From: a virus
DNA length: 23,671 nucleotides
Reading direction: 5' to 3' (one strand)
Virus record (IMG/VR): IMGVR_UViG_3300031673_000490
Coordinates: 1 to 23,671 of that record
This document shows positions 1,787-23,216 of this stretch, one piece after another. Below the pieces are notes generated by a model that did not search any database, was not told where the DNA came from, and saw nothing but the letters and a program-made list of their open reading frames with translations. The translations under genes and the position numbers were made by a program. Within the stretch, counting starts at the first letter, position 1, and the number at the start of each line of letters is the position of its first letter.

Positions 1787-2016
1787 TAGGTCGATTCCTT
1801 TAGCCCCGATGGTTTCTTTTCAACGAGTTCAAATCTTTTAAAGATAGCCGGAAGCTGCACTGCGTCATCAACCTCCATAAACATTTCAGCCTCAATTGTG
1901 AACATTGAACCCATTTCCATGTGAATATCAAGTTTTCGGACATGCTTTAATCCGAGTGCATCACATATTTCTTTTGCTACTTTGTGATATCCTGTGATCA
2001 AGGGTTTATGTGCCAT
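1786..2016 (-). CDS. Small conserved phage protein between head closure and tail terminator
   Basis: 76 aa, not confidently assigned. The N-terminal KVAKEICDALGLKHVRKLDI followed by an alternating strand (MFTIEAEMFMEVDD) resembles small phage proteins of the pattern 'LC.ALGL....V..ldI....d....V..e.y...e', of unknown function. It contacts both neighbours by one-base stop/start overlaps (at 1786 and 2016), so all three genes are probably translated together in fixed ratio. The HK97 gp10-like adaptor often sits here, but the protein looks too short for that. No Cys, no signal peptide, no membrane segment. Confidence 0.6.
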   Translation of the reverse strand: MAHKPLITGYHKVAKEICDALGLKHVRKLDIHMEMGSMFTIEAEMFMEVDDAVQLPAIFKRFELVEKKPSGLKEST

Positions 2017-2333
2017 TACGTCGACTCCTTTGCCATAATGTCTAAATACTCGTTTTTTTCTGAAGGATTTATCACACTCACAATATTGAAGTAGCGATTG
2101 CCAAATTTTAAAAGCCAGGAGGGCCGGAATAGGCTCCTGTATCGCATTCGTATCCTATGGCTTACAACCATATCAGTCTGCATGGATTGAACCGTCTCCG
2201 TGGCGCTCAGGGGCCATATGGCACAAAAAACCGTCGCGATGGTATTGTAAACCTCAGAGAATCCACCCATCCCATCCGACGTTTTCGTTGCCGCCTGGAT
2301 CTCAATTCTTTTATTTAAGTCTCCGATTTGCAT
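2016..2333 (-). CDS. Head closure (head-tail joining) protein, Phage_H_T_join / HK97 gp7-like
   Basis: 105 aa, the usual family length. It begins MQIGDLNKRIEIQ, then DGMGGFSEVYNTIATVFCAI, then TDMVVSHRIRMRYR, and ends with the FGNRYFNIVSVINPSEKNEY segment. This is the standard pattern of the family: L-x-x-R-I-x-I-Q, a D-x-x-G-G turn, the 'THxIxxRYR' strand, and the 'xRxYxIxxVxNPxExNxxL' end. These proteins form a dodecameric ring under the connector and close the DNA channel before the tail attaches. It overlaps the preceding small gene by 19 nt, and its stop shares a base with the next start. Confidence 0.85.
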   Translation of the reverse strand: MQIGDLNKRIEIQAATKTSDGMGGFSEVYNTIATVFCAIWPLSATETVQSMQTDMVVSHRIRMRYRSLFRPSWLLKFGNRYFNIVSVINPSEKNEYLDIMAKEST

Positions 2334-2575
2334 TTCAATCCAAGCACATTCATTAAATTTACGTGATTGTCGATTTCCTGCCTTGCCATCGCCTTCAGGT
2401 TTTCGGGAATGTCGGGATTGGAGATAACCCTTTCACCGGCACAGATAAGATCCATTGCGTCTTTTTCCACTTCCTTTTTCATTGCCCTCACATATTTAGT
2501 CACGTCCAAGTTCAGTGGTACTCCCCATTCCGATGTAGAACCGTACTTTTTAGAACTCATCCCATAACCTCGCAC
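2315..2575 (-). CDS. Small protein of unknown function between connector and head closure genes
   Basis: 86 aa from the first possible ATG. A second ATG at 2560 (MSSKKYG) gives 81 aa and a shorter overlap with the connector gene, and may be the true start. The product is mostly charged helix in the middle (YVRAMKKEVEKDAMDLICAG) with a helix at the end (IPENLKAMARQEIDNHVNLM). It overlaps its upstream neighbour (2550) and downstream neighbour (2333), so it is held within the coupled head-completion block. No family recognised. Confidence 0.55.
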   Translation of the reverse strand: MRGYGMSSKKYGSTSEWGVPLNLDVTKYVRAMKKEVEKDAMDLICAGERVISNPDIPENLKAMARQEIDNHVNLMNVLGLKCKSET

Positions 2576-3767
2576 TCGCTAAAAGCCGCTGCACCGTCTT
2601 ATTCTCCTGATAATTCTGCCCGCTCATAATCTTGGCCTCCTTGTTGACATAAAGGTCTGCCGCGATAAGCAAAAAGGCTGCCTTGATCTTGTAGGGTACC
2701 AGTGCCCGTGTCGTCCAGCCGCAGACATACCGTATCGTGATCGGTTTCGACGGATAGGCGGTAAATGACGGCCATGATACCCCATACGGCAAAACAATCC
2801 GCCCGCACATCTCGCCGTTTGTTTCAACCAGATACTGGGTCGTGACGGTCATTGTGGTCTCAACGCCGTCAGAATCCTTGTATTTTACCGATGAAACCGT
2901 TTGAAGGTTTCCGAATGGCAATTTGATGTAATTTTTATTCGGCCAGCCACCAAGAGAGAAATCCCACGTCTGGGTAATCAGTGCACGACGGCAAATATCT
3001 TCCACGTGCTCCCTGCTGGCTGTGATAATTGCCTCTAATAGATCATCCTCAACTGATGTCGCGGTTAGCCTAATAACCTGGGTCCCGAAAGTACAAACAT
3101 CACCCACCACCTTAGCAACCGTCCTGATATATTGCTTCGTGCCAGTGTAGGCGATCTCTTGTGTTGACGGATCAGTTGCGTCTGTGACCTGTATAAATCC
3201 CCCGCCGGTCCAATCAGTATAGACTGCCCCTGCGAAAGTAGGGTTAGCCGCCCCCTGGTCCGCTAATTTTGCAGCGGTTCCCGTTACTCCGATTATTTCT
3301 CCGAGCGTATAGGTCCCGGATCGATCTTTTACGGTATAGGTCAAGGCTGTGACTTTCGCCACAACTACGCAGGTTTTCCCGCTGGTTTGACCTGTTATGA
3401 TATCATCAGCGGCCCAATCGGTCGCCGGTGCGACGTCAAGCGTTATGGTCTCGGTATTGGTATCGGCTTCCTGGATTTTAACGTCCAGTGTCGCGCCTGC
3501 TGCATTCATACCAGCGGCCAGAGTTACGACTGCGGAATATCCCAGAACATCAACACCGACTCCCAGGTGATCATATCCGGCCACGGTCGCGTATTCGTCT
3601 GATAGGTTGCTTTGTGTTTCGTCGATGTTATCGGCAAAGCTCCCCGAGTCTAAGCGGAGATGAATTTTCAATTCTGAAATGCTCACAGGTTCAAATGCCG
3701 GGGCTACAACCAGACCCCCGCCACTTGCCGCTCCACTTACCGCCGTTGCTGTTCCTGCGCCTGCCAT
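2550..3767 (-). CDS. Head-tail connector, phage gp6 / phiE125 gp8-like, with a large internal insertion
   Basis: 405 aa, about twice the roughly 200 aa typical of the family. The N-terminal piece FEPVSISELKIHLRLDSGSF (about residues 26-45) and the C-terminal piece from about residue 235 together form a normal gp6-like connector. The C-terminal piece has LLEAIITASREHVEDICRRA, LITQTWDFSLGGWP, IKLPFGNLQTVSSVKY, ITIRYVCGW, and IKAAFLLIAADLY. Between them are about 180 beta-rich residues. In these, TLDVKIQEADTN and YTDWTGGGFIQVTDA...YTGTKQYIRTVAKV read like a phage decoration-type beta-sandwich. Inside that domain sits a further block, ADDIITGQTSGKTCVVVAKV...VKDRSGTYTLGEIIGVTG. The connector ring binds beneath the portal. 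GGAGG lies nine bases before ATG 3767. The gene upstream in transcription is separated by the antisense HNH gene. Confidence 0.8.
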   Translation of the reverse strand: MAGAGTATAVSGAASGGGLVVAPAFEPVSISELKIHLRLDSGSFADNIDETQSNLSDEYATVAGYDHLGVGVDVLGYSAVVTLAAGMNAAGATLDVKIQEADTNTETITLDVAPATDWAADDIITGQTSGKTCVVVAKVTALTYTVKDRSGTYTLGEIIGVTGTAAKLADQGAANPTFAGAVYTDWTGGGFIQVTDATDPSTQEIAYTGTKQYIRTVAKVVGDVCTFGTQVIRLTATSVEDDLLEAIITASREHVEDICRRALITQTWDFSLGGWPNKNYIKLPFGNLQTVSSVKYKDSDGVETTMTVTTQYLVETNGEMCGRIVLPYGVSWPSFTAYPSKPITIRYVCGWTTRALVPYKIKAAFLLIAADLYVNKEAKIMSGQNYQENKTVQRLLASARLWDEF

Positions 3768-3793
3768 TATACAACTACCTCCAAAGTTCTAAC

Positions 3794-3822
3794 TTGCTTT
3801 TTAAGTTCACATGATATAGAAT
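3794..3822 (+). promoter_or_regulatory. Candidate sigma70 promoter for the HNH endonuclease gene
   Basis: TTGCTT (3794-3799), a 17-bp spacer, and TAGAAT (3817-3822; five of six with TATAAT) lie 28 bp before the HNH start. A gene running against the late operon needs its own promoter, and this is the best match in the short gap. Confidence 0.45.
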
Positions 3823-3850
3823 ATAAACAAAAATTAAATGGAGCAAAAAT

Positions 3851-4540
3851 ATGGGAAAACATTGGACTCTTACCGAAGAACAAAGTAAGGCTATTTCTAA
3901 AAGAAAAATGGGGCATCCGGTTTCTGAAGAAACAAGGCGTAAACTGTCTGAAGCTGCAAAAGGGAAAGTCCCATCTATTGAACAAAGACGCAAACAATCG
4001 GAAGCCATGAAAGGTCGGCCAAAATCTCCAGAGACAATAAAAAAGATGCGCCAATATCATGCAAATAGACCACAAAAACACAATGACAATATTAGTAAAG
4101 GTCAGGCTGGTAAGAAACTCACACCAGAACATATAGAAAACCAACGTAAAACAAAGATGGCAAATGGCACATGGAAACCTATCGGCCATACCTATGAACA
4201 AAGAGGATATCGTATGGTAAAAATTGCGGAAGGGCAAGGCAGAGCTAATTATGCTGCCGAACATAGATATATAATTGAAAAAGAAATAGGCAGAAAACTT
4301 CTTCCACATGAACACATCCACCATATTGACGGGGATAGCATGAATAATTCTATCAGTAATCTTTGTGTTATCTCTAAAGTTGATCATACCTTAATAACCA
4401 AATTGCTTCGTTGTGTTGATAAAAATCTTGCCAAGATAATAGTTTCTACACTTATGAAACGGTTTCCAAATCTGGCAAAGCATCCATATTGTACCCGCTC
4501 TTCTTTGCCCAAATATAGTAATCGCCAGCATCCAGCATGA
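3851..4540 (+). CDS. HNH homing endonuclease with NUMOD3 repeats
   Basis: 229 aa on the strand opposite to the surrounding operon. The first about 100 residues hold at least three NUMOD3-type DNA-binding units of the form S-x-E-T/Q-R-x-K-x-S-E-A-x-K-G-x (at about 25-40, 42-57, 59-72). The HNH motif is at about 137-182: EHRYIIEK, then HEHIHHIDGDSMNNSISNL, with the HH pair at 157-158 and further Asn and His (179) ligands. These enzymes cut DNA at an intronless target and spread their own gene. TGGAG eight bases before ATG 3851 supports the start. The last 29 codons are antisense to the end of the structural gene at 4452-5057, so the present C-terminus looks like read-through into host sequence. 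This is a free-standing mobile gene inserted into the morphogenesis block. Confidence 0.9.
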   Translation: MGKHWTLTEEQSKAISKRKMGHPVSEETRRKLSEAAKGKVPSIEQRRKQSEAMKGRPKSPETIKKMRQYHANRPQKHNDNISKGQAGKKLTPEHIENQRKTKMANGTWKPIGHTYEQRGYRMVKIAEGQGRANYAAEHRYIIEKEIGRKLLPHEHIHHIDGDSMNNSISNLCVISKVDHTLITKLLRCVDKNLAKIIVSTLMKRFPNLAKHPYCTRSSLPKYSNRQHPA

Positions 4541-5057
4541 ATGTGATTTGGCCCGCCGAATCAGTAATCCCTGATGCAAGGACATAAAGCCCTGCCGAAT
4601 CGGATGTTACCCAGACCTCGGCCCCGTCAATCGGACCCCCGGTCACTGAATCGGTCAGGGTATATGTCCATGATATGGCGCCGGCCCCCAGGTCGATGAT
4701 ATTTGCAGACAAACTTAACATCTGGAAAAAATTATAACACCCGGCGACTGTAATCGTTATGACTACCCAATCGGCCCCGGCCGCTATTGCCGCATCAGGC
4801 AAATCAAAGCGATATAAGCCAGGCGCTTTTGTGTCGTCTGCTTCCTTAAATCCGCCATCAGCATGGGCAGAATTGACAGCCACAAGCGTGATCGCCGGTA
4901 TATCAACTGGGATACCGCCCTGCCGCCAATATGAGGCCGTGACATCTCCAAATGCCTTTCCGGTCACTCTGATATTATCGGTTGTGCTTCTCAAAATAAC
5001 CGGGATGCTAAAAGCAACAGTCCCAGCCAGTAGGCCGCCTTGAAGTTTCTCACTCAT
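4452..5057 (-). CDS. Phage structural protein with C-terminal carboxypeptidase-regulatory/Ig-like domain
   Basis: 201 aa. The N-terminal about 110 residues have the pattern TGKAFGDVTASYWRQGG, then VNSAHADGGFKEADDTKAPG, then LYRFDLPDAAIAAGADWVVI. This beta-rich module recurs in phage particle-associated proteins; I recognise the pattern but know no precise function. Residues about 125-195 (WTYTLTDSVTGGPIDGAEVWVTSD...GQITFMLDAGDYYIWAKKSGY) form a typical CarboxypepD_reg/CNA-B-like beta-sandwich used as a surface or adhesion module. RBS AAGGGG precedes ATG 5057. The gene appears complete, ending shortly after the Ig-like domain, but its last 89 bp overlap the convergent HNH gene. Confidence 0.7.
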   Translation of the reverse strand: MSEKLQGGLLAGTVAFSIPVILRSTTDNIRVTGKAFGDVTASYWRQGGIPVDIPAITLVAVNSAHADGGFKEADDTKAPGLYRFDLPDAAIAAGADWVVITITVAGCYNFFQMLSLSANIIDLGAGAISWTYTLTDSVTGGPIDGAEVWVTSDSAGLYVLASGITDSAGQITFMLDAGDYYIWAKKSGYNMDALPDLETVS

Positions 5058-5074
5058 GATAGCCCCTTATCTTT

Positions 5075-5518
5075 TTACTCAAATGTGAAGATCCCGTTTC
5101 CATGCCAAGTAATAGTCAAGTCGCCTGCTTTCATATCTATCGGGCCATCAAGGTCAATCATAACGAGACAATGACCAGTCGTTTTATGATAAATAACAGC
5201 ATGGTCAGCGTTCTGTGGACTGGCTGCATTTTGCGCCCAGGTTACAGACGCGCCAGTATCGTCAAACGTCACTACACCAGCGGCTTCTGCCAACATAGCA
5301 GTCAGCGTGTCAAGTAGTAATCCTCCCGCTGCATATTCCCCGGCTGTTGCAATTGCAGTGTAGTTGGTTGTCCCACCGGCTGCATAGTGCGGATCAGGGT
5401 CACCCACCAAACACGTCTCGGTAACGAGCCCTATCCATATTTCATCAGCAGCCTCCCAACCACCCATAATCATTTCCTTTTTCGATTCCTCGAAAACTAT
5501 TAAATCCCCTCTTGCCAT
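5075..5518 (-). CDS. Beta-rich phage virion protein of unknown function
   Basis: 147 aa. The end of the protein, DHAVIYHKTTGHCLVMIDL followed by DGPIDMKAGDLTITWHGNGI, matches a module common in phage structural genes ('a.vy.d....d....fvdlgg.i.l.aGdltitw...gi.tl'). The middle (TFDDTGASVTWAQ) is also beta-rich. GGAGG eight bases upstream supports ATG 5518. No signal peptide. It lies between the repeat protein and the Ig-like protein, with gaps of 17-18 bp, so it is in the same transcript. It is probably particle-associated; its place in the virion is unknown. Confidence 0.65.
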   Translation of the reverse strand: MARGDLIVFEESKKEMIMGGWEAADEIWIGLVTETCLVGDPDPHYAAGGTTNYTAIATAGEYAAGGLLLDTLTAMLAEAAGVVTFDDTGASVTWAQNAASPQNADHAVIYHKTTGHCLVMIDLDGPIDMKAGDLTITWHGNGIFTFE

Positions 5519-5536
5519 TTTGTATACCTCCGTCTA

Positions 5537-6859
5537 TTAAAATAATTGGTTCATTGAGTTAAATCCAAGTTGTTCTGGTATAAATCCTGTACCACCGGCT
5601 GAAAGGTTCGCCGCAAATTCAGCAAGTATCAGGACATCAACCCCGGCACTTAACGCAACATCAAAATTCATATCTGTTACATATTCAGTGATGACAAGCG
5701 CATCAAGACCAGCCCCAAAGGTTATTTCCTTATTTACGGTGGCAACGTTCTCGGTTATAACCAGAGTATCAATGTCCGCTGTGAAACTTATCGCTTTATC
5801 AACGTTGACAATGTTCTCGGTTATGGTAAGCGCATCAAGACCAGCCCCAAAGGTTATTTCCTTATTTACGGTGGCAACGTTCTCGGTTATAACCAGAGTA
5901 TCAACACCCGCTTCAAAACTTACCTCTTTATTGACATTAACGACATTCTCAGTGATGACAAGCGCATCAAGACCAGCCCCAAAGGTTATTTCCTTATTTA
6001 CGGTTGCTGCATTCTCAGTAATGACAAGGGCGTCAACACCGGGACTCACAGAAACATTGAAGTTTATATCTGCCGTATATTCGGTAACGACAAGAGCATC
6101 AACGTCAACCGTGAAGGTTATCGCTTTATTTGCCGTAGCCGCGTATTCTGTAATAACAATAGCATCGGTTTCAGCAGATACCGGATGCTGGATCGTGGCT
6201 GCGTATTCAGTGATGATAAGCTCATCGAATTTTGCTGATGTCCATACAAAATCGTCGTCACTTACAAACTCAAAATCGTCGTCACTTACAAACTCAAAAT
6301 CGGTATCACCTATTGGAACATCTATATAATTTACATTTGCCTTGTTCTCAGTGATGACCAGCATATCAATACCGGCTTCAAAACTTATCTCTGTATTGAC
6401 GGTCGCTGCGTATTCAGTGAGGGTCAACGCATCGGCGGCGCCTGCCGATATCGGCACTACGACAGTGGCTGCATTCTCGGTTATCGTCAGAGCATCAGTG
6501 TCAACCAATATTGGGGCCATGACGGTGGCATTGGCCTCAGTTATAACAAGGGTGCCAATGCCTGTATCGAAACGTATTGCTTTATTGACATTAACGACAT
6601 TCTCAGCGATTGCCAGGGCATCGATGCCAACCTCAAATGTTATCGCTTTATTGACATTAACGACGTTCTTTGTAATGATCAGGGCGTCAACGCTGGGACT
6701 CACAAAAACATTGAAGTTTACATCTACACCGTTCTCTATTAGAACAAGAGCGTCAATTCCGGTACTGAAAGCAACGTCGCCGTCATCTACAAATTCAAAA
6801 TCAGCGTCATCTACAAATTCAAAATCAGCGTCATCTCTATAGTCAAAATCATCACTCAA
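5537..6859 (-). CDS. Repeat protein: 17 copies of a ~22-residue beta-type repeat with acidic DFEFV blocks
   Basis: 440 aa, TTG start at 6859 with AAGGAG nine bases upstream (the SD overlaps the stop of the preceding gene). The protein opens with an acidic block (DADFEFVDDADFEFVDDGD). Seven repeats follow, then a second acidic block (DTDFEFVSDDDFEFVSDDD), then ten repeats, then a short tail ending in GFNSMNQLF. The repeat consensus is DALVITENVATVNKEI + TFGAG + L: a hydrophobic strand, a turn with E-N/Y, a second strand, and a loop. The regular alternation suggests a beta-solenoid or fibre-like stack. There are no Cys. Such repeats suit an extended virion appendage, but nothing proves it. DNA copies are near-identical over part of the array, so recent duplication is likely. 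Confidence 0.75.
   Translation of the reverse strand: MSDDFDYRDDADFEFVDDADFEFVDDGDVAFSTGIDALVLIENGVDVNFNVFVSPSVDALIITKNVVNVNKAITFEVGIDALAIAENVVNVNKAIRFDTGIGTLVITEANATVMAPILVDTDALTITENAATVVVPISAGAADALTLTEYAATVNTEISFEAGIDMLVITENKANVNYIDVPIGDTDFEFVSDDDFEFVSDDDFVWTSAKFDELIITEYAATIQHPVSAETDAIVITEYAATANKAITFTVDVDALVVTEYTADINFNVSVSPGVDALVITENAATVNKEITFGAGLDALVITENVVNVNKEVSFEAGVDTLVITENVATVNKEITFGAGLDALTITENIVNVDKAISFTADIDTLVITENVATVNKEITFGAGLDALVITEYVTDMNFDVALSAGVDVLILAEFAANLSAGGTGFIPEQLGFNSMNQLF
5697..6004. repeat. 132-bp direct repeats (44 codons, two protein repeats) within the repeat-protein gene
   Basis: The string beginning AGCGCATCAAGACCAGCCCC recurs at 5697, 5829 and 5961, exactly 132 bp apart, and each copy continues identically through a stretch ending near TTTACGG. 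132 bp is two 22-residue units, so duplication has acted on pairs of repeats. Shorter 24-bp tandem copies encode the acidic DFEFV blocks at about 6252-6299 and 6781-6828. Confidence 0.9.
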
Positions 6860-6872
6860 GGCTATTTACTCC

Positions 6873-9800
6873 TTACATTCCCGCCGCACCAAATGGACAT
6901 GGGTAAACTCCGATAGTCAAATAATTTTCTATCCAATAATCACAATCAGTTATATCAGGACATACCCAACTTGGCTTTGTTGTATATGCACCAGCTTTGG
7001 GATAGACATCAAAGTCCCAACTTGCTCCGGCGTTATAGTTTATACCTGCATCTATGGAAGGCCATCCTTCGTTTGTTAGGGCAGCTTCCTTGTATATGTG
7101 CACAGCGTTTGCGTTTGGTTCGGTGACTTCATAGAGTTTGAGGTTGTCTAACCAGATTTCTTCGCCTGCGGCCATATTATCAAATCTAATGGTATCTGTA
7201 GCCTTGGAATATGTAAAATATAATTCAAAAGCAAGGAATTCCGTAGAAGTAATCGTAACACTATCTGATGTTCCCCATAATGGTGATGCATGTCTTATTT
7301 CAATAACAACCGAATCGCCTGCACCAACTTTAGCCTCTCCGATTAGTTTATACATTTTTGTTATGGTCGGATCGATACTTAAATCCCTTGAGCCCCTTAA
7401 AACGTTACTTGCCCCCTCCGCAGTATCCACCCAAGTAGTATGCAACGCTCCGTCATCAATCTCTATCGTGTTTGCACCGTAGGGAAGCCAGTAGATGTCA
7501 ACAGGATACACCTTATCATCAGCATCCAGGGTTACATTAGTCCCCGTAGCTATGAACGTAGTGCCGACATCATTATCTGGCGCACCGTCAAGCGTGAAGT
7601 TCTCTCCGTCCTGAGCACTAATTTCATACATTGTGCCTACAGTCAGACTTCCAGAAGACAGTTCAGCAAGTCTTAAATCAGCAAGTGTAAATCCTCCCTT
7701 GTCCCCTGTACCGCCAGACCCACCGTCCTGGTCGAACAGGTTAGCACCTAATACCTCTCCCGTCCCTGCTTCACCGATATAGCCAACTGCCTGGACACCA
7801 GTTCCATCGTCAACTATGAGTCGGTTGCCGGTGCCTGCGTAAGCAGCTACCAGCCCCCCAGCATCATGAAACCAGGCCTGTCCATCTACAAAGCTGCCAC
7901 GCATCTCAGTAGCTCCTGATTCATCTTCAAGAGAAATATCTTCTATATATGTGCCAGCTTTACAACAAGGCGAACCAGCTTGGAGTGTGAAGTCACCTCC
8001 TGCGGCGTTGGTGAAGAGGGGGTCGGATATCGAAGAATTAGCATCCCCAGAAATTGCAGTTTTCCAATCACCAAATTCTGACGTATCATAACCGGTTGCA
8101 TCTAATAAAAATAAATCACCGGCGGCTTTATAGTAAATATTAGAATCAAACGTGGCAGCGGGACCTGGATCAGCCGCAACACAATAAAATTGAGTAGCAT
8201 AAACTATATTATTTTTGAATATATTGCCTGTATCACTCCCATCTCCAACCATATCAATCTCAGCCAAATGGTCAGCAGTATGGTTAGCGCTTCGATTCTG
8301 CCCATTATTATATAGTGTGTTGCTATAAAGTACGTTTCCACCTTCATTCAGGACTCTTAACCCAGAACCATCATTTCCATAGCAAATATTTCCATAGACC
8401 TCATTTCCTCCACCATAATCCAATATAATACCATTACCATCCTGCATAGGTTCTTCGGTTCTTTTTGTCTGTGTGTCATACACAAGATTGAATCTAACTA
8501 TATTATTCTGTCCTTGTGAATTATTATCTGCACCATCATAGACGCTGATTCCGCTATCACTCTGAGGCGCATCAGGGTTTATCCCATTATTATATACTTT
8601 GTTATATTCAATAATAACATTATTAGCCTGGCTCAGAATACCACAACCACCATTACTGTGGGTTATATTGTGCGCCACTATAACATAGGAAGTATCTATA
8701 ACCGTGATTCCCTCGGCTGGCGAATTTGTATGACAGATATTATAGGAAATGACATTTTCAGTTCCATCACCACCATCTGTGATTCGCATTCCTCTGTAGT
8801 TGCCAGAAACAGTATTCGCATAACCTGCTGCCCCACCAATAGTAATGCTCTGACCATCATATAGTCGTATCCCATCATAATAACCGCTTATCGTACAACT
8901 CCTCACATAGCAATCAGTTGGATCGGCAGCGGCTACATCGTCAAAAGATATTCCCTTGCCCGTCCCAAGTCCAACTGCTGTGACATCATTAATAATTACA
9001 TCATTGCACGCGCCTTCAATATGAACAGAACCGTCACTACCAGAATTGGAATATTTGACTGTAATCCCATCAACTGTAACGTAATCTTTTGTGGCAATAA
9101 CAATACAGGAATTTCTTTGTCCCGCTTCGAGCACTCCAATATCAGGGTCTTCCCCAACATTGACATATAATACATCACCAGCCCAATCCCATTCATTGAG
9201 GGCCACACCTATTGTTGCCCCATCATTTGCGGTTAAAACTGTGCCGTCATAAACCACACCAATGGGTTCTGTGGTAATACCTGCTTTCTCATATCCTGCG
9301 CCACCATTTGGGCCATTTCCCGTCGTTCCAACTTTTGCATTATCTATATATATAGTAGCTGATGTAATATCCGTAAAGGTACTGCCGAGTTTTATTAGGT
9401 CTACTTTTATTGTATTGTTATCCACATTTGTCAGGTTGATAATTTCGACATCGTTTGCCCATGCTTGAACAATACCATCGTTTGTATCCACAGTTGTTGC
9501 AGCTTTATAATGAACGACAATATTGTAGGCTGTATCAGCACTAACCGAAACAGATGACAATGAGGTTTGGGCACCAGCATCATTATTATATCTCGATTGA
9601 AAGTATAAGGTTCCTCCAGATTCTTTCACATCAACGACAGAACCAAGTCCAATAGAAGCATCCCATATTCCAATTATACTCTCAATATACTGTCCTACCC
9701 CCCATGTATACCCAGATACTAAATAAAAATCTGTTGACGACCAATATTCCGTTCTCTCAGTTAAAACTTTAGTTATTCTGTCAGCAGCCCCCGCAACAGT

Positions 9801-13656: not shown

Positions 13657-14976
13657 TTATCTGCTTTCCAATGCAATAAAATGACCCTGTGTATAATCAG
13701 AACCACCTTTAAAAGGCGTTAATGGCGTTGCCCTCACAGGCTGTCCATCCATTCTGGTAATAAAACGCAGGATTTGCTGGTCCGTCAGGAATTCGACATG
13801 AATAGAAACGTCCTGCCTCATCCCGCCTTTCCTTGCCAGAATATACCCATTAGACAAATCCGCCAAAACGATATCTCCGGTTGTACCCATTGTAGCGCAT
13901 TGCTGAATTGGAACGACTGGGCGTCCGAATAAAGTTCCATAAGGCTGTCCAGAAAGCCCACCGGCTGGCATATAAACCGGAACACCACCAGTACCCACTG
14001 AAATACTCATCGTAAACAACTGAGGCTCGACATTCTGATTGATAAGCCATACAGCATTAGACCTGCTTTCAGCAAATATGCGGGAATACATATTTATAAC
14101 ATTTTCCGCGATAACCGTTGCACCCTGGCCGTCCTCTTTATCAACACTTACGAGGCCACCGCCATTCATAATGCCAAGACATTCACCGGCGCCAGTACCC
14201 TGAAAAATCTGGTCATCCATTTTGAACGCAAAGGCTGATTCAAATCCCTGACGGACCCAGCCTTCAAGGGCCACCATGTCAGACATAAGCTCCTCAGTCA
14301 GGTAGCAAATGCCAGCCATCTTATGGAGGTTCAACTCAATTCGCCTGAATTTCGGCTTCGATGCCGTTATGGTTCCGCCCTCATCAACCATGTAAACCTG
14401 GATTCCACCCCATAGATTAGATACGCGCGAGCTTTCATCAACACCGTTCAGCTTGATCGAATTTGAATTGCTTGAGATCTCAATGGTTCTGCATCGTTGT
14501 GCAAGTTGAGAAATCTGCACCGCACCATCAAGCAGTTCATTTGAGAAATCGCTTTGGATCATGAAAGCCCCATCACTGGGGACCGTTTCACCAAGGCCCG
14601 TTGCCGCATTTCGTATATTCAAAAGTCTTGGGTCTACCCTTCCACCCTTGACGCTTGCCTGAATAACAGCGGCCACTTGTTCGCCAAGAGAACCGAACTT
14701 GTCCTTATCCCGTATCTTAATCCCGCTGCCCTTGTTCTCATTTTTCGGTTGCGTTTGCGGGGTTCCCGGTCGTTCTAACTCGGCTGCAATGCGCTCCTGC
14801 CTTTCCATTGTTTTAATAATGTCCTGATATTCTTTTACTGTGTCCATGATCTCATTTTTGTAAATAAGTTCCTCTTTCGTGAGATCGCGGTTTTCATTGA
14901 CACACTGAGCATCAATGCTCGCGGATTTTGCCATCAAAACCCGAATGTCTTCCTTATATTGGGTAACTGTCTTCAT
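13657..14976 (-). CDS. Major capsid protein, HK97 fold, with N-terminal delta/scaffold domain
   Basis: 439 aa from ATG 14976, chosen because AAGGAGG lies eight bases upstream; an in-frame TTG at 14994 would overlap the RBS. Residues 1 to about 110 are charged coiled coil (ENRDLTKEELIYKNEIMDTV...QDIIKTMERQERIAAELERP), the delta domain that acts as an internal scaffold and is removed by the head protease in this family. The mature part begins around the GSLGEQVAAVIQA...DPRL region. It carries the usual order: ETVPSDGAFMIQSDFSNELL, the E-loop region, KMAGICYLTEELMSD, FAFKMDDQIFQGTGAGECLG, and PYGTLFGRPVVPIQQC...DLSNGYILARKGG. The C-terminus RFITRMDGQPVRATPLTPFKGG is characteristic. Located immediately after the ClpP-like protease, as expected. 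Confidence 0.93.
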   Translation of the reverse strand: MKTVTQYKEDIRVLMAKSASIDAQCVNENRDLTKEELIYKNEIMDTVKEYQDIIKTMERQERIAAELERPGTPQTQPKNENKGSGIKIRDKDKFGSLGEQVAAVIQASVKGGRVDPRLLNIRNAATGLGETVPSDGAFMIQSDFSNELLDGAVQISQLAQRCRTIEISSNSNSIKLNGVDESSRVSNLWGGIQVYMVDEGGTITASKPKFRRIELNLHKMAGICYLTEELMSDMVALEGWVRQGFESAFAFKMDDQIFQGTGAGECLGIMNGGGLVSVDKEDGQGATVIAENVINMYSRIFAESRSNAVWLINQNVEPQLFTMSISVGTGGVPVYMPAGGLSGQPYGTLFGRPVVPIQQCATMGTTGDIVLADLSNGYILARKGGMRQDVSIHVEFLTDQQILRFITRMDGQPVRATPLTPFKGGSDYTQGHFIALESR

Positions 14977-14990
14977 CTTAAATACCTCCT

Positions 14991-15902
14991 TCAATTTAGA
15001 TAATGTGTTGGGGCTAACATTTCGCCCTTGGTTAATAGTTCCGCTGTTCGATCCTTCTTCTTCGGTTTCGGCTCCTCAACGTCCCGCTGAGTAGCAGATC
15101 CAACGTCCCGCTGAATCTTTTCCTTTCCCGGCGTCAGGTCGTCAATCTGGTCTCCGTCCCGGAGATCATCTGGCAAACCATCCGCAACTATCGCTTTGGC
15201 CTGTTTCTGGGTATATCCTGCGTCCCGTAGGATACGTTCCAAATCACGGGCAGTCGGTGTCTGTTTTTCACCTTTGAGCTGATCAGGTACATTGGCAAAA
15301 ACAGACAGATCAAAAAAAGTGGCTTTCGCCTTCTCGTTTTTTTCACTTTCTTCAATTACGTCGATAAAACCCATTTCCAGGGCTTCCTCGGCGGTCATCC
15401 ATGTTTCGGCGGTCATAAGATCTTTGATTTCATCTTCGTCTTTCCCGGTTTTATCCATGTACGTCTTGGCAATGGTCCCACCTACCTTGTCCAAAAGATC
15501 AGCCTCTTCCCGCATGGTGTCGGCATTTCCGATAACGATAGACCAGGGGTCATGGATCATCAGAAAAGCATTCTCGGCCATACGAACTTCATCTGAGGCG
15601 AGAGCAATCACAGAAGAGATCGAGGCGGCGAGTCCATCAATATGGGTAATTGTCTTTGACTTGTGTTGCTTAATTGCATTGAATACCGCCGTTCCATCAA
15701 AGACAGACCCACCGGGCGAATTGATTCTGATATTGATGATCTTTGATTTAAGAGCGTTCAAATCCTTAACAAATTGTTCAGCACTTATGCCAAACCACGA
15801 AATCTCATCATAGATATAGACCGTAGACTCTTCAGTGGCCTTGTTTTCAATCTTATATCCAGATTTGGCCCGTGGCTTAAATGGACTTCGTTGGATTCTC
15901 AT
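14991..15902 (-). CDS. Head maturation protease, ClpP-like (peptidase S14), with C-terminal scaffold motif
   Basis: 303 aa. The ClpP core is clear: INIRINSPGGSVFDGTAVFN (residues about 56-75), the nucleophile motif DGLAASISS with Ser94, and the histidine in FLMIHDPW (His117). An acidic helix-turn segment (YMDKTGKDEDEIKDLM) follows, then the TWMTAEEALEMGFID end typical of S14 head proteases. After about residue 215 there is a tail with RDLERILRDAGYTQKQAKAI, the scaffold-like helix seen at the end of many phage proteases. An acidic, Lys-rich end follows, with the short repeat QRDV twice. It cleaves the capsid N-domains inside the prohead. AAGGAGG precedes ATG 15902; the stop is 14 bp before the capsid start. 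A terminator-like structure lies just upstream. Confidence 0.92.
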   Translation of the reverse strand: MRIQRSPFKPRAKSGYKIENKATEESTVYIYDEISWFGISAEQFVKDLNALKSKIINIRINSPGGSVFDGTAVFNAIKQHKSKTITHIDGLAASISSVIALASDEVRMAENAFLMIHDPWSIVIGNADTMREEADLLDKVGGTIAKTYMDKTGKDEDEIKDLMTAETWMTAEEALEMGFIDVIEESEKNEKAKATFFDLSVFANVPDQLKGEKQTPTARDLERILRDAGYTQKQAKAIVADGLPDDLRDGDQIDDLTPGKEKIQRDVGSATQRDVEEPKPKKKDRTAELLTKGEMLAPTHYLN

Positions 15903-15990: not shown

Positions 15991-16044
15991 GATTTCTTTT
16001 GATCCCTTAACCCGTCAGTTAAGAGATGCCCTGATTTTTATTTG

Positions 16045-16284
16045 TCAGCTAATCTTACGTTTCAATTCTAATACTTCAAACCTCAACTCATTATCACACG
16101 AAGTACAAACAGCTTTTCCTTCCATCTCATATTCAGGGATATCAATATCATATAGCCCCGCATCTTCAAAAAATCGTGGATTAAATACTTTTCCAGTAGC
16201 TATCAAGCCATTAATACAATCAATTCCTACAATTTCCGTTTTTCTATTAAATATTATTGTGGGTTTTTCAACTCGTTTATCCAT
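16045..16284 (-). CDS. Small CxxC protein of unknown function
   Basis: 79 aa. It reads MDKRVEKPTIIFNRKTEIVG early and has one Cys pair near the end (AVCTSCDNELRFEVLELKRK); another Cys sits at IDCINGLI. A single CxxC could be half of a zinc site or a redox motif. AGGGAG nine bases before ATG 16284 supports translation. It is the last gene before the terminator-like hairpin at 15930-15990. No family recognised; most likely an accessory protein carried between portal and protease. Confidence 0.6.
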   Translation of the reverse strand: MDKRVEKPTIIFNRKTEIVGIDCINGLIATGKVFNPRFFEDAGLYDIDIPEYEMEGKAVCTSCDNELRFEVLELKRKIS

Positions 16285-16316
16285 AATATCAAGCTCCCTA
16301 TCCTGATTATTAATTT

Positions 16317-16541
16317 CTACTTTTTTTTAAACCCTAAGCATTTCCCATTTGCATCCAAATGCACATCCATGCATCCACATTGATAAACACCGGGAAGTGG
16401 ACTGACATTGAATTGACATTCCCCATTGTCACAAGTAAGGCCGACTTTTCTCAGTTTGCAGCCCTTAGGAGTCCACTGTTTGCATTCTTTCGCGATGCAG
16501 AAATATCGACCAAAGCTTTTTCGCCAGGTTGGTTTTTCCAT
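16317..16541 (-). CDS. Cys-rich small protein, probable metal-binding
   Basis: 74 aa with eight Cys (positions about 15, 20, 28, 37, 42, 55, 57 and 68: FCIAKECKQW, KGCKLRKVGLTC, GECQFN, YQCGCMDV, GKCLGF). The spacing suggests two zinc sites or disulfides. There is no signal peptide, so metal binding is more likely. GGAGG seven bases before ATG 16541 is a strong start. The gene overlaps the end of the portal-methyltransferase frame by 91 nt in another frame. This overlap may be a sign that the methyltransferase reading continues past its natural end. No family recognised. Confidence 0.65.
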   Translation of the reverse strand: MEKPTWRKSFGRYFCIAKECKQWTPKGCKLRKVGLTCDNGECQFNVSPLPGVYQCGCMDVHLDANGKCLGFKKK

Positions 16542-18499
16542 TTCTGGACCTCCGATACAATTATCAAATGCTTTTCGCCTGCTTCATCGAACTCATCTTC
16601 GACCGTAGTATATATGTCCAACACCTTAAAATTATGCTCTTTGAGAAGATCGATATATTCATTTACATTAATGAACTCCTGTTTTGTTCCGTCTATTTTT
16701 TCAACATTTGAATAAATGTAAATAAATGACAATCCATTCTTTTTTAAAACACGGCGTATTTCTGGGATGCTTTTCCCCATATTAGTCGAATGGAGAACAC
16801 TTAAAGTAAAAACAGCATCAAAATTTTTATCATCAAACTGTAGATTCTCAGCATTTCCTACCTGAAAAGCTACTTTAACCCCTGCATTTTCAGCATTCTC
16901 TTTTGCTATCTCTATCGCTTCAGGGACAAAGTCTATTGCAGTAACAGTAAGGCCGGCCAATGCAAAAAGAATGGAATCGCGGCCTCCGCCGCAACCAATC
17001 TCAAGAACAGATTTTTTGCCTTTATCAATAAGTTCTTGTGCGAAATCTTGAGCAAATTTCGACGGCTGCATATCATCAGCCCAATGAGCATTCCCTTCCT
17101 TATAGAGTTTTTCCCAATCTACGTTTTCTTTTTTTCGATCTAAAATGCGATGTGGTAACAATTTCAACTTCGATTTTACTCCTTCATTTCCTGTTTTCTG
17201 TTCTATTTGCTTTGGCTGTGGTTGCTTGCCAGTATTCTTAGCGAGATATTCATCGAACTTGCTAACCGGGATCAACCCTGTCGGCATCCAAAGTTCATCG
17301 GCCATCGGGTCTTCGCTGGGGTTCAAATCTTCTTTTGACCTGACCTCATTCGGCGTCATAATACCCGATCCAATCATTAATTTATAAAACAGAGCCCTAT
17401 CTTTACTATTTGCCCTCAAAAGGCCCTCAACAATATGCTTAAAATAGAGGTTTTGCTTTTGTTCTGCGGGTGATAGTAATTGCATGACATAATTCTGTTC
17501 GAGCCGAACCAGCCACGGCAAAATTGAATCCATGACAAAAGACATCTGCTCAGATTCAATATTATTGAAAGAAGATTTAGTCATTTCTTTCAATTTATGA
17601 ACGGGCAAATTATACCATCTCGCTATATCTGTGATATTGAACGTCCGGCTTTCAATGAATTGCGAATCGGTGGGCGGGATGCCGATTTTGTCAAGCGTCA
17701 TACCATCTTCCAGCAACATCAACCGGTGAGACTTTCCCAATCCGCTGTAGCTCTCTGTTAATGATTTTTTCAGGTTCTTGTGGGCGTTTGCATTCAATTG
17801 GCCCGGATGTGAAACAATAACCCCAGGGTGCGTACCCTGTCCGAAGTACAATTCCCCGAATGTCTCCAATGCCATGCCCAGGCCAATCGACTTCCGGGCC
17901 ATTGCGATAACCGAATATCCAACAAAACCATCAAATCCGAGCCCTGGAACGTGCAAAATCTGCTCTCTGGGGAGTGTTTTCGTCTCATTTCCCACCCTGA
18001 TATCATAAACCAGCTTCCCATCCCGGATATCAACAGCCGTCACCCTATTCGGTGCAATAGGCCATAACTCCACAATATCACCATAGCCATTAAAGACCTT
18101 TTCAGCATAACCATTGCCCCACGCCAGAATATGAGCCATAAAAGTCTCACGGCCTGCCATGGCAGTTACATACGGATTCCACTTGGTGTGTATTACATTG
18201 TAGAGGGGGTTTTTATCAAATACTTGCTTGGTTTTGCCGGTTTGTTGCATTAAATGGAGAGGAAGTGAACCCACCGTCCCGGATATTAAGGAAAGGGCAT
18301 TATAAACGGCGGAATAAGTAAGGGCGGTTTCTTCTGTAACAGTTTCACCGGATTGAGATTGGGAACCTCGGAGATTCCAAAGCGAACGATCCCATGCTTT
18401 AGGGTCGTTGAGACTGAGATTAAAAATCTTTTTAGTCCCGTGCTTGATTTTTTGACCAGTGTACCAAGCAAGAATATTGATTTTAGTGAGTAGGTTCAC
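16451..18499 (-). CDS. Portal protein fused to a C-terminal class I SAM-dependent methyltransferase
   Basis: 682 aa, GTG start with GGAG seven bases upstream. Residues 1 to about 425 are an HK97-family portal: SAVYNALSLISGTVGSLPLH, the FMAHILAWGNGYAEKVFNGYG segment, LPREQILHVPGLGFDGFVGYSVI, and ARWYNLPVHKLKEMTKSSFNNIE with the downstream YVMQLLSP region and GIMTPNEVRSKEDLNP. From about 458 to 650 there is a complete methyltransferase: WEKLYKEGNAHWADDMQPSK, motif I SVLEIGCGGGRDSILFA, motif II TAIDFVPEAIEIAKENAE, GNAENLQFDDKNFDAVFTLS, LHSTNMGKSIPEIRRVLKKNG. The portal is the dodecameric DNA channel; adding an enzyme domain is unusual. The last about 30 residues overlap the next gene in a different frame. 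An A7 run sits at the domain boundary (17129-17135). The methyl acceptor is unknown. Confidence 0.9.
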   Translation of the reverse strand: MNLLTKINILAWYTGQKIKHGTKKIFNLSLNDPKAWDRSLWNLRGSQSQSGETVTEETALTYSAVYNALSLISGTVGSLPLHLMQQTGKTKQVFDKNPLYNVIHTKWNPYVTAMAGRETFMAHILAWGNGYAEKVFNGYGDIVELWPIAPNRVTAVDIRDGKLVYDIRVGNETKTLPREQILHVPGLGFDGFVGYSVIAMARKSIGLGMALETFGELYFGQGTHPGVIVSHPGQLNANAHKNLKKSLTESYSGLGKSHRLMLLEDGMTLDKIGIPPTDSQFIESRTFNITDIARWYNLPVHKLKEMTKSSFNNIESEQMSFVMDSILPWLVRLEQNYVMQLLSPAEQKQNLYFKHIVEGLLRANSKDRALFYKLMIGSGIMTPNEVRSKEDLNPSEDPMADELWMPTGLIPVSKFDEYLAKNTGKQPQPKQIEQKTGNEGVKSKLKLLPHRILDRKKENVDWEKLYKEGNAHWADDMQPSKFAQDFAQELIDKGKKSVLEIGCGGGRDSILFALAGLTVTAIDFVPEAIEIAKENAENAGVKVAFQVGNAENLQFDDKNFDAVFTLSVLHSTNMGKSIPEIRRVLKKNGLSFIYIYSNVEKIDGTKQEFINVNEYIDLLKEHNFKVLDIYTTVEDEFDEAGEKHLIIVSEVQKWKNQPGEKALVDISASRKNANSGLLRAAN
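17129..17135 (-). promoter_or_regulatory. A7 slippery run at the portal/methyltransferase junction (possible frameshift site)
   Basis: On the coding strand the reading is GAT CGA AAA AAA GAA, giving the A-AAA-AAA heptamer in the X-XXY-YYZ register. In the normal frame the fusion continues. After a -1 slip the next codons read RKRRLGKTL and then TAA, giving a portal of about 466 aa without the methyltransferase; a +1 slip also stops within a few codons. No obvious downstream stimulatory hairpin or upstream SD was seen. Confidence 0.4.
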
Positions 18500-19765: not shown

Positions 19766-21559
19766 TCATAATTGCATGCGTTCTTTTATTTGGGCTTCAC
19801 TTAATCCATCATACGCTGATTTAACTGGCCCGCCCTTGAGCATAGCGCGACCTATGGCCATCACGAGCGCGACTGCACCGTCGATCTTATTTTCAACATT
19901 GCTTTTCGTTGGATAGTAATATTTTACCGGCCCACCACGGCTTTCCTTCAGAATGACGTTAGAAATCATCCAACCCAGGACCGGATCTCCATCGTGCCAT
20001 ATCTGTTTTGCTGCTATTCTGGCTTCAAGCTCCTTCATAGGTTCACTCATTAACGCAGGGCCTTGATTTATCTCGATACAGGTGTCCTCTTTGGTCCATT
20101 CCATGACATTACTGATAATATAACCCGCTTCCCTTGGATCGAATGCAAGCTGCATTATCGGATGGTCTTCATTTATTAATTTTAAATCATCCTCGATAAA
20201 TTTTTGATCTGTCCTTTCACCGGGCGTCTGGATAATATAGCCCTGCTTAACCCATAATTCATATAGTCTGCGCTGTTGCTGCTTAGAATTTTTTATTGTC
20301 TCTCCGCATAGATAATGCTTACTAAATACGGCAAATCCTTTCACAAATTCAAAGAGTAAAACCAAAGAACAAATATCAATTTTACTTGCCAAATCGAGGC
20401 CAGCATAACAGGGTACACCAATAAAATCCTTAATATTAAGTGAATTATCCCGACAAGCATTCCACTTTTCCGCAGGCATCCATATAATTTCGCCTTCGAC
20501 CCAGATGCAAAAATTCAACCTTTTAACAATACTTTCCTGCATCGGCATGGCCTTTGCTTCCTCGACCTGCCGCCGGAGGTAGTCTTTGAATGGGGCCCCC
20601 AGGTATGGCATGTTCGGATTTGCCTTGATCCAATTTTTCTCATCTCGCCAGTCATCACAATCAGGGCAGCCGTCCTGGGGCACCGTTTTCCCATCCGCCG
20701 CGCACTTCTCGCATACATCAAGCCCGGACATTATACCAAACCAGGCATCGTCCTTGATGATTCCCTCGAGTATTTTCTCGCTGTAATCATGATGTTGATA
20801 GCAAATTGAGTGACGGTCGTAGCCGGCATTCGTTATCTCGAACACCAGGGCCTGACGCCTTGTTTTTGTTCCGGCGCTCATCTTACGCACTACCATATCA
20901 TTCGGGTGCTCATGGATCTCATCAAGCAGGGCAACGTGAGGCCGCTTGCCATCCAGGCCCCTATGCTCGGAGGATATTGCACGGAAAAAGCTGTTTTCGA
21001 TATGATAGGCTATGTTGTGTTTATCGATTTGTAGCAGGTCCCGGAGTGATTCGGATTTTTCGGCAAAGGTTCTGGCATCCCGGAAGGTAATCCCGGCCTG
21101 CTCCCTGGTGGTTGCGGCCGCATAGATCTCAGCCCCTGGCTCTGAATCAAAGACAAGGCAATAAAGCCCAACTCCGGCAGCACTTGGGGTTTTTCCAGAA
21201 CCTTTTGCTTGCTCGATATAAGCCGTCCTGAATCGCCTAAACCCATCTTTTTTGCGCTTCCAGCCAAAGATTGACCCAATTATAAATTTCTGGTTAGGGG
21301 TGAGTTTAAAAGGCTGGTCTGAAAAGTCGCCCTCATAGAATATCAGGAAGTTTCGGAAAAAATTTATTATTTTATTAGCTGCGTTATGGTCAAAATATAA
21401 TCCTCTAATTGCCTTTTTAGGTGTTTTGTGAATCCATGGCTTATCAATACAATGTCGTTTACATGCTAATCTCGTCCATTTATTAGCAGGTATCTTTCTG
21501 GAAATAACGTCCCTTGCATATACATGGATAGGGTGTTTATATTCTTTAGATTGACCCAT
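19766..21559 (-). CDS. Terminase large subunit (ATPase-nuclease) with an inserted zinc knuckle
   Basis: 597 aa from ATG 21559, which has AGGAG five bases upstream; an in-frame GTG two codons earlier overlaps this SD. The ATPase half has Walker A EQAKGSGKT (about residues 116-124) and Walker B HVALLDEIHEH (about 208-218), with AAATTREQA between them. The nuclease half has YAGLDLASKID (Asp389), LAFDPREAG (Asp474) and NKIDGAVALVMA (Asp560). This is the Terminase_1 type motor that packages DNA through the portal and cuts concatemers. Residues about 283-301 read CEKCAADGKTVPQDGCPDC, a CX2C-X11-CX2C zinc-binding insert between the two halves. It overlaps the small terminase by 14 nt. Confidence 0.94.
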   Translation of the reverse strand: MGQSKEYKHPIHVYARDVISRKIPANKWTRLACKRHCIDKPWIHKTPKKAIRGLYFDHNAANKIINFFRNFLIFYEGDFSDQPFKLTPNQKFIIGSIFGWKRKKDGFRRFRTAYIEQAKGSGKTPSAAGVGLYCLVFDSEPGAEIYAAATTREQAGITFRDARTFAEKSESLRDLLQIDKHNIAYHIENSFFRAISSEHRGLDGKRPHVALLDEIHEHPNDMVVRKMSAGTKTRRQALVFEITNAGYDRHSICYQHHDYSEKILEGIIKDDAWFGIMSGLDVCEKCAADGKTVPQDGCPDCDDWRDEKNWIKANPNMPYLGAPFKDYLRRQVEEAKAMPMQESIVKRLNFCIWVEGEIIWMPAEKWNACRDNSLNIKDFIGVPCYAGLDLASKIDICSLVLLFEFVKGFAVFSKHYLCGETIKNSKQQQRRLYELWVKQGYIIQTPGERTDQKFIEDDLKLINEDHPIMQLAFDPREAGYIISNVMEWTKEDTCIEINQGPALMSEPMKELEARIAAKQIWHDGDPVLGWMISNVILKESRGGPVKYYYPTKSNVENKIDGAVALVMAIGRAMLKGGPVKSAYDGLSEAQIKERMQL

Positions 21560-22028
21560 CTTCACTCCTTCTAAACTTCTCAGCTTTGCTGGCCGATCTT
21601 GGTTTATCCACCTTCAGGTTTACACGACTTGACGCACCCCCCGCGCCAAGCAGGACAGCATTTTTCATAAGGCGTTCCTCAGCTTCTTTTACTACTCTAC
21701 ACCATGGATTTATTTTCGGTTCCCCTGATTTATTAACCCAGACAGGCCCTCTCTCGCGCATTTTTTCTACAGCATCACACCAATCGCTAAACCGTTGACA
21801 ATACAAGGCAAGTGTGGTCATGTCCGCTTCCGTCATTAAGCCTACATTGTCTAAAATAGAGGCCATCCTTCGCCATTCTTTCCTGGCTATTTTATCGAGG
21901 ATTTTGGGATATCGAGGTATCTTCTCTGGGGGCTGGGGTTCCTGGTCACGGGGTTTCTTATGCGTGTGGGCAGTCCCACCACGGATATCTATGATTTTGG
22001 AGGGGATTGACTTGCGACCTTTTGACAT
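21546..22028 (-). CDS. Terminase small subunit, P27 family
   Basis: 160 aa. The start MSKGRKSIPSKIIDIRGG suits the P27 pattern (basic, then K-x-x-x-x-x-G). The core has WRRMASILDNVGLMTEADMT followed by TLALYCQRFSDW, with NPWCRVVKEAEERLMKNAVL and GASSRVNL after it; all are family hallmarks. It recognises the packaging site and loads the large subunit. It is the first gene of the late transcript. The SD is very poor (TGAGGC touching the ATG), and the promoter's -10 ends six bases before the ATG, so the message may be leaderless. Confidence 0.9.
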   Translation of the reverse strand: MSKGRKSIPSKIIDIRGGTAHTHKKPRDQEPQPPEKIPRYPKILDKIARKEWRRMASILDNVGLMTEADMTTLALYCQRFSDWCDAVEKMRERGPVWVNKSGEPKINPWCRVVKEAEERLMKNAVLLGAGGASSRVNLKVDKPRSASKAEKFRRSEDGSI

Positions 22029-22723: not shown

Positions 22724-23216
22724 AAGAAGAAAGGAATACGGACGGATTAGAGGCCTCAAACAAGAGGATAGATGTACCGACCCGATCAAGGGCCGACTGT
22801 ATTGTGACTGTGGCTGCCAAGACCCCCATAATGATGATCCGTCGATTAATTTGATGGATATTATCGTCTCTGGTAGGGCCAACCACGGATATGCAGACTA
22901 TACGCTTACGCGTGACGGCCAAGAGGTCGGTGAAATTAACACCCAATATTGTGCACTCGTCTTGGACGGTTACGAATACCTTGGCTGTAACCGAGATGAG
23001 ATGAGCCCATTGTTTGACCAGATATTTGATGGTGATGTTAATCGCTTTGCCCACCCCCAAAATAATTCGGCGGGGGACACCCTTGCCGAAACCGTCGCAA
23101 CCGTCCGGTTGGCAGAAAAAATTGCCCTCATGGAACAAGATGAGAGATGCAAAAACCATCCAGGATACTGCACAGTCTGTCATAGTTATTGTTATGGAGA
23201 TTGTGAGACTAATTAA
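22716..23216 (+). CDS. Cys-rich protein of unknown function
   Basis: 166 aa if it starts at ATG 22716, which lacks an SD of its own; the next in-frame ATG is at 22854, also without an SD. It has Cys clusters at both ends: RLYCDCGCQDPHNDD (about residues 27-41) and RCKNHPGYCTVCHSYCYGDC near the C-terminus, ten Cys counted in these two regions plus others nearby. The middle is ordinary and partly acidic (DEMSPLFDQIFDGD; AETVATVRLAEKIALMEQDE). The spacing suggests two zinc sites. No family recognised. It lies in the plus-strand operon between the acidic protein and the 107-aa gene. Confidence 0.6.
   Translation: MEGRRKEYGRIRGLKQEDRCTDPIKGRLYCDCGCQDPHNDDPSINLMDIIVSGRANHGYADYTLTRDGQEVGEINTQYCALVLDGYEYLGCNRDEMSPLFDQIFDGDVNRFAHPQNNSAGDTLAETVATVRLAEKIALMEQDERCKNHPGYCTVCHSYCYGDCETN

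Follow-up and report, generated by a model that had tools for sequence, protein, structure and literature searches.

Is a phage portal protein that continues in frame into a complete methyltransferase (MTase) a genuine product, and if so what would an enzyme do at that position? The question is raised by an ORF of 682 aa in the stretch of DNA analysed here (the window; 23,671 nt, positions 1–23,671 of IMG/VR virus record IMGVR_UViG_3300031673_000490). The ORF (nt 18499–16451) starts with GTG, has no internal stop and lies on the minus strand, as do all features described below unless stated otherwise. It is surrounded by genes for the small and large terminase (the latter at nt 19766–21565; PF20441, PF03354, phrog_9), two HTH proteins, a ClpP-type head maturation protease (nt 14991–15902; phrog_94, phrog_133) and an HK97-type major capsid protein (nt 13657–14994; PF05065), followed by connector and tail-side genes, so that the order is terminase-portal-protease-capsid. 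Elsewhere in the window, a second, unrelated Methyltransf_11-type ORF (nt 1–300) runs off the end beside an ORF at nt 284–994, a 229-aa homing-endonuclease-like ORF with weak PADLOC matches occupies the strand opposite to the phage genes (nt 3851–4540, plus strand), and nt 5537–6859 encode a 440-aa protein of imperfect repeats of the type AD.L.ITE.....N.

That one chain holds both a complete portal and a complete MTase, as had been read from the sequence alone, was confirmed by Pfam and TIGR matches, an AlphaFold2 model and Foldseek. Residues 1–450 (nt 17150–18499) form a full-length HK97-type portal domain, which matches PF04860 (E=5.5e-95, residues 63–391), phrog_12 (E=3e-110) and TIGR01537 portal_HK97 (E=3.5e-74) and aligns with 18 relatives at identities of up to 83%. 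The sequence-only reading had the portal start right but ended the domain at residue ~425; it extends to 450 and includes LKLL, the tail sequence that ends the portals of close relatives, the junction lying near residue 450. Residues 451–653 (nt 16541–17149) are a class I SAM MTase domain (Methyltransf_11, E=6e-22 over residues 499–592; family alignment A4). The last 29 residues (654–682, with the stop nt 16451–16540; pLDDT <50) are a readthrough tail that overlaps the beginning of the next gene in another frame and lies outside the enzyme. The AlphaFold2 model has two confident domains, portal and MTase (the latter with pLDDT mostly 93–98), and disorder is predicted for residues 658–682 and for the linker at residues 425–460 (nt 17120–17227; pLDDT <50), within which lie the junction and LKLL, the natural end of the portal. 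The best Foldseek matches were the HK97 portal (8cez/8fql) for the first part and 8gdu, 2p8j and 6mro for the second, which has a Rossmann-like MTase fold.

A stop codon, an indel or an assembly error between residues 425 and 470 had been named beforehand as what would undo the fusion, and none is present. A second contig, IMGVR_UViG_3300031578_005045, carries an identical ORF and is 99.99% identical to the window over 10,972 bp, the sole mismatch being at nt 23114, outside the ORF. Together with the 36 contigs carrying fusions of this kind (see below), this rules out an assembly error as the origin. The closest relative, L003, comes from the same metagenome as the second contig (3300031578); its portal gene is 79% identical but it lacks the MTase, the portal ending just after LKLL and being followed by 140 bp and then the protease. 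Relative to L003, the window has an insert of 1,118 bp (nt 16039–17156; flanking blastn blocks L003 219–1540 and 1556–2306) that carries the MTase, a small Cys-rich gene (s74), and a 79-aa ORF (nt 16045–16284) for which no homologue was found. At third codon positions the MTase has a G+C content of 0.31 and the 79-aa ORF one of 0.21, compared with 0.47 in portal and protease. The portal of L003 stops where the window carries this extra low-G+C DNA; a cassette was thus inserted at the stop of the portal, which now reads into the MTase. No other portal relative fetched with portal queries carries the MTase, and within the window's own portal family there is one fusion among roughly 130 distinct portal-bearing loci.

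The gap between portal and protease is an insertion hot spot in the relatives of the window, where HNH and GIY-YIG-like genes were recognised by eye from translations (L016, L047, L084, L116, L123, L137, L152). Another relative (L062, nt 4938–7412) has a LAGLIDADG intein within the portal itself, near portal residue 284 (Pfam LAGLIDADG_3 plus an intein splicing domain). A distant portal (L102, nt 2015–4372) has a C-terminal domain with the motif HEMGHHFD, by eye a zincin-like peptidase although without a Pfam match, and may be another portal-enzyme fusion.

The gene behind the MTase, s74 (nt 16317–16541), encodes a 74-aa protein and was overlooked in the sequence-only reading, yet it was this gene that made the MTase family findable. 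It starts within the 3' end of the MTase ORF and has its own Shine-Dalgarno sequence, GGAGG (nt 16549–16553), 7 nt before the ATG. Many relatives have an MTase stop that shares an ATGA or GTGA with the start of s74; the window lacks this stop. Homologues 78–83% identical lie immediately behind related MTase genes of other phages, and seven Cys are invariant across 35 s74 sequences; the protein is probably metal-binding. For s74 of the window no Pfam or PHROGs family was found, and single members give only weak Pfam matches (e.g. Zn_ribbon_RRN7, 6e-4). A Rieske-type protein is matched weakly (E=0.0025), which is a lead only, and from the AlphaFold2 model (pLDDT 45) no fold claim is drawn.

Searches with an s74 profile and then with an MTase profile recovered about 52 viral contigs; an earlier MTase alignment, built from cellular homologues, had been too divergent for scanning. 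An s74-type gene adjoins the MTase in 48 of 48 loci with a 3' flank, about 20 of which were found via the MTase alone, and is lacking from three distant MTase matches that serve as a negative control (L276, L278 and L280; best domain E about 1e-17 to 1e-10). The search for similar fusions that the sequence-only reading had called for was thus productive, the MTase forming the C-terminus of a portal in 36 contigs. Viruses that are nearly identical but come from different samples are counted separately here; at a threshold of 97% MTase identity, 37 sequences are distinct, 26 of them fused to a portal. The fused portals belong to phrog_12 (the window, L228, L229, L230, L250), phrog_2662 (L236, L239, L242, L243, L252, L258, L267), phrog_146 (L233, L209), phrog_113 (L247, L219, L265, L275) and phrog_10963 (L251), and in L263 a phrog_30703 portal is followed by a MuF-type minor head domain and then the MTase. 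The number of portal families is given as at least five, because the phrog_12 and phrog_2662 profiles overlap. In all of these the enzyme domain is C-terminal to a portal or MuF protein. Elsewhere the MTase is fused to the prohead protease, with the portal a separate gene (L264), or is preceded by an unidentified N-terminus of 248 aa (L266).

A further 13 contigs have the MTase as a gene of its own, mostly located in the terminase-portal/neck block (within the terminase-portal block in L246, L248, L253, L254, L256, L257 and L261), so that portal fusion is not essential. In a 127-kb virus, L272, the free gene lies behind terminase and neck-type genes, as read by eye from translations. For a 60-aa N-terminal piece of the free MTases no phage homologue was found. 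At least three different portal-MTase phages, with two portal families, were present in metagenome 3300031578 (contigs 005045, 001459 and 004689). The 1227-aa portal-MTase ORF of L267/L206 has an intein-like insertion near portal residue 70, placing three elements in one frame.

A tree of the 37 MTases requires 12 partner changes over nine labels. Two of the switches are on well supported branches: the MuF-linked MTase is sister to a phrog_2662 MTase (support 99/96), and the phrog_146 fusions are nested in a phrog_12 clade (100/99). The portals of L251 (fused) and L261 (free) are 84% identical over 451/455 residues, and the L251 fusion is a whole portal joined to a whole MTase. The MTase is often better conserved than its portal (71% vs 36% between the window and L228). 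Over pairs with computable dS, its dN/dS is about 0.04–0.33 and mostly about 0.04–0.13 (L219/L249 and L258/L260 about 0.06; L239/L240 0.08; L245/L252 0.04; L252/L259 0.10; L265/L275 0.20; L247/L219 0.33); as these are simple NG86 estimates, with several dS values above 1 and other pairs saturated, only the direction is safe. That direction indicates that the MTase is under purifying selection. Only a moderate correlation (r=0.37) links the distances of s74 with those of the MTase, which counts against the interpretation preferred below. Between the window and L272, the s74 proteins are 78% identical while the adjoining MTases share about 30–33%; s74 seems either to have been exchanged separately or to be under far stronger constraint than the MTase.

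These results bear on the suggestion that the fusion is an accident that happens to be tolerated, which was part of the sequence-only reading. In its neutral form, this would be read-through into an inserted gene, borne by a flexible portal tail, and the window taken singly offers some grounds for it: the insert is recent, has a low third-position G+C and lies by the site at which relatives carry HNH and GIY-YIG genes. A chance or recent accident is nevertheless rejected at the level of the family by the MTase tree and dN/dS. Fusions recur on several unrelated portal families, the enzyme is under purifying selection and its SAM motifs are intact, which together refute neutral read-through for the MTase family and leave it highly improbable as an explanation here.

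The enzyme has a SAM-binding motif I, LEIGCGGGRD in the window, and an acidic motif II; L49, G52, C53, G56 and D73 are invariant in 17 family members. Neither a DNA MTase motif IV, (D/N/S)PP(Y/F/W), nor an m5C PC was found, the corresponding region reading SLSVLHST. Being of the Methyltransf_11/25 kind and lacking the motif IV of DNA amino-MTases, the MTase would likelier act on a protein, an RNA or a small molecule than on DNA. Modification of DNA, one of the roles proposed from the sequence alone, thus loses ground. It would make the MTase an anti-restriction device that modifies phage DNA passing the portal. In favour of this, the enzyme would sit around the DNA channel, and DarB of phage P1, a head-carried MTase, protects DNA in cis (PMC5512222). 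The residues at motif IV, the nearest structures, which are of non-DNA MTases, and the lack of a target-recognition domain all speak against this role, which is very unlikely. No close cellular donor of the MTase was found in the genomes searched (best 33–46% over partial lengths). The domain reaches no curated NCBIfam cut-off, and the NCBIfam models that it matches include no phage family.

The place of the fusion is informative about location. In solved portals the crown, formed by the C-termini, lies on the inner capsid face (PMC10359639; for 80alpha, PMC10541612), and MuF proteins lie in the head (PMC5576092). Because the MTase is joined to the portal C-terminus, that is, to the crown, and because its fused partners (portal, portal-MuF and protease) are head proteins, it is predicted to be internal to the head. 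Of the two positions considered from the sequence, the head interior is therefore far more likely and the outer clip is disfavoured. The proposal of twelve MTase copies per portal holds, at about twelve per particle, if the ORF is translated as read.

The interpretation preferred here, with a probability of roughly 0.55, is that the ORF belongs to a mobile two-gene module of MTase and s74, and that the MTase is carried inside the head on the portal and acts at infection. In most members the MTase makes up the C-terminal part of the portal, and with the crown facing the head interior about 12 copies would surround the DNA channel on flexible tethers. The s74 protein may serve as a partner of the MTase, for example as a metal-binding activator. 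As an effector brought in by the virion, the enzyme would then have a host protein, RNA or small molecule as its substrate, at the time of infection or shortly afterwards, a step that is less certain. It is favoured by analogy with published portal- and MuF-fused enzymes proposed to be packed and injected. Confidence in it is only moderate, because a host-directed role would require that the MTase be cut from the portal or meet its target at the vertex; how an enzyme bound to the portal would be injected is not obvious, and no protease site was identified, both of which count against the effector model. The most far-reaching version, a new class of counter-defence or take-over system carried by the virion, must be regarded as tentative: a holoenzyme of portal-tethered MTase and metal-binding s74, moving as a cassette between unrelated tailed phages, would enter together with the genome and methylate a host factor.

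Two other functional explanations deserve weighing against a head-borne enzyme acting at infection. The MTase might work during assembly on the capsid, the portal or s74 (e.g. on Cys, Lys or Gln side chains), the fusion holding it at the procapsid with no delivery to the host. Its position, fused to or beside portal, protease and terminase genes, suits such a role, and the constant partner s74 could itself be the substrate; but the partner head proteins are of unrelated families, so that, s74 apart, no virion substrate common to all of them readily suggests itself, and related phages manage without the enzyme. An assembly role is accordingly unlikely. Alternatively, the working form could be a free MTase, released in the cell or within the head by an internal start or by cleavage, with the fusion no more than a by-product of gene insertion. 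At the junction in the window a TTG with AAGGAG may be an internal start, from which some free MTase could be made, many fused members keep a Met at the ancestral start, and there are the free-gene members; yet no ribosome site or start is conserved across fused members, and it would have to be explained why independent lineages have repeatedly lost the stop of the portal. A free working form is judged decidedly unlikely.

Among known proteins, the HK97 portal (8cez, 8fql) shares the fold of residues 1–420 and the gene order terminase-portal-ClpP-type protease-capsid, but ends after its tail, without an enzyme domain. The view that portals carry no enzyme domain, expressed in the sequence-only reading, is correct for textbook phages and not in general: 2H, PBECR, InPase, Nudix and ART domains fused to portals have been reported from genome analysis (PMC5512222, PMC9503650). 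A portal-methyltransferase fusion is not described in the accessible portions of those papers or of PMC5576092, nor was a report of one found in the literature, of which few subscription journals were within reach. MAGs of Deltaproteobacteria, Methanoperedens and Aminicenantes contain relatives of the portal. Searches of 50,697 GenBank phage records gave only distant matches to the MTase, none covering 80% of the query, and no match to s74, which was not found in plasmids either. A scan of genomes from two phyla, 395 from that of a Desulfobacteraceae MAG and 247 from that of Candidatus Methanoperedens, likewise gave no s74, while its model found 10 of 10 control virus records.

Trm112 is an activator of several MTases. 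The zinc-binding activators of that type resemble s74 in being small, Cys-rich and paired with a class I MTase, but s74 has no convincing match to any Pfam family and did not match Trm112-type or known zinc-binding activator families by sequence; the likeness is one of analogy only, and the part played by s74 could be that of activator, substrate or chaperone of the MTase. Small class I MTases of archaea and bacteria (6mro/8gdu of Methanosarcina acetivorans; 2p8j; the N-terminal domain of NCBIfam MduS) align with the enzyme in fold and N-terminal segment, but most of these structures carry no assigned function. DarB of phage P1 (PMC5512222) is likewise an MTase carried in the head, but is a large DNA methylase-helicase, whereas the present enzyme is of ~200 aa, has neither motif IV nor helicase, and sits on the portal. 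The nearest parallel in kind is that of the portal- and MuF-fused effectors, including MuF toxins (PMC5512222, PMC9503650, PMC5576092), with a C-terminal enzyme on a head protein that is thought to be packed in the head; the difference is that here the enzyme belongs to a single family of class I SAM MTases, for which a gene for a small Cys-rich protein is an obligatory companion. The short list of portal-attached phage enzymes thereby gains a methyltransferase, and a two-gene module with a Cys-rich partner. If the proposed role is true, fusion to the portal would set both the copy number of the enzyme (12) and its place (the DNA gate, in the head interior), a choice made several times by different phages. 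The system offers a direct way of testing where portal-fused enzymes do their work: within the head, at the vertex or in the host. Enzymes on portals are a kind already known; what is new, as far as these searches reach, is this particular enzyme, the partner that always goes with it and how many portal families it has joined.
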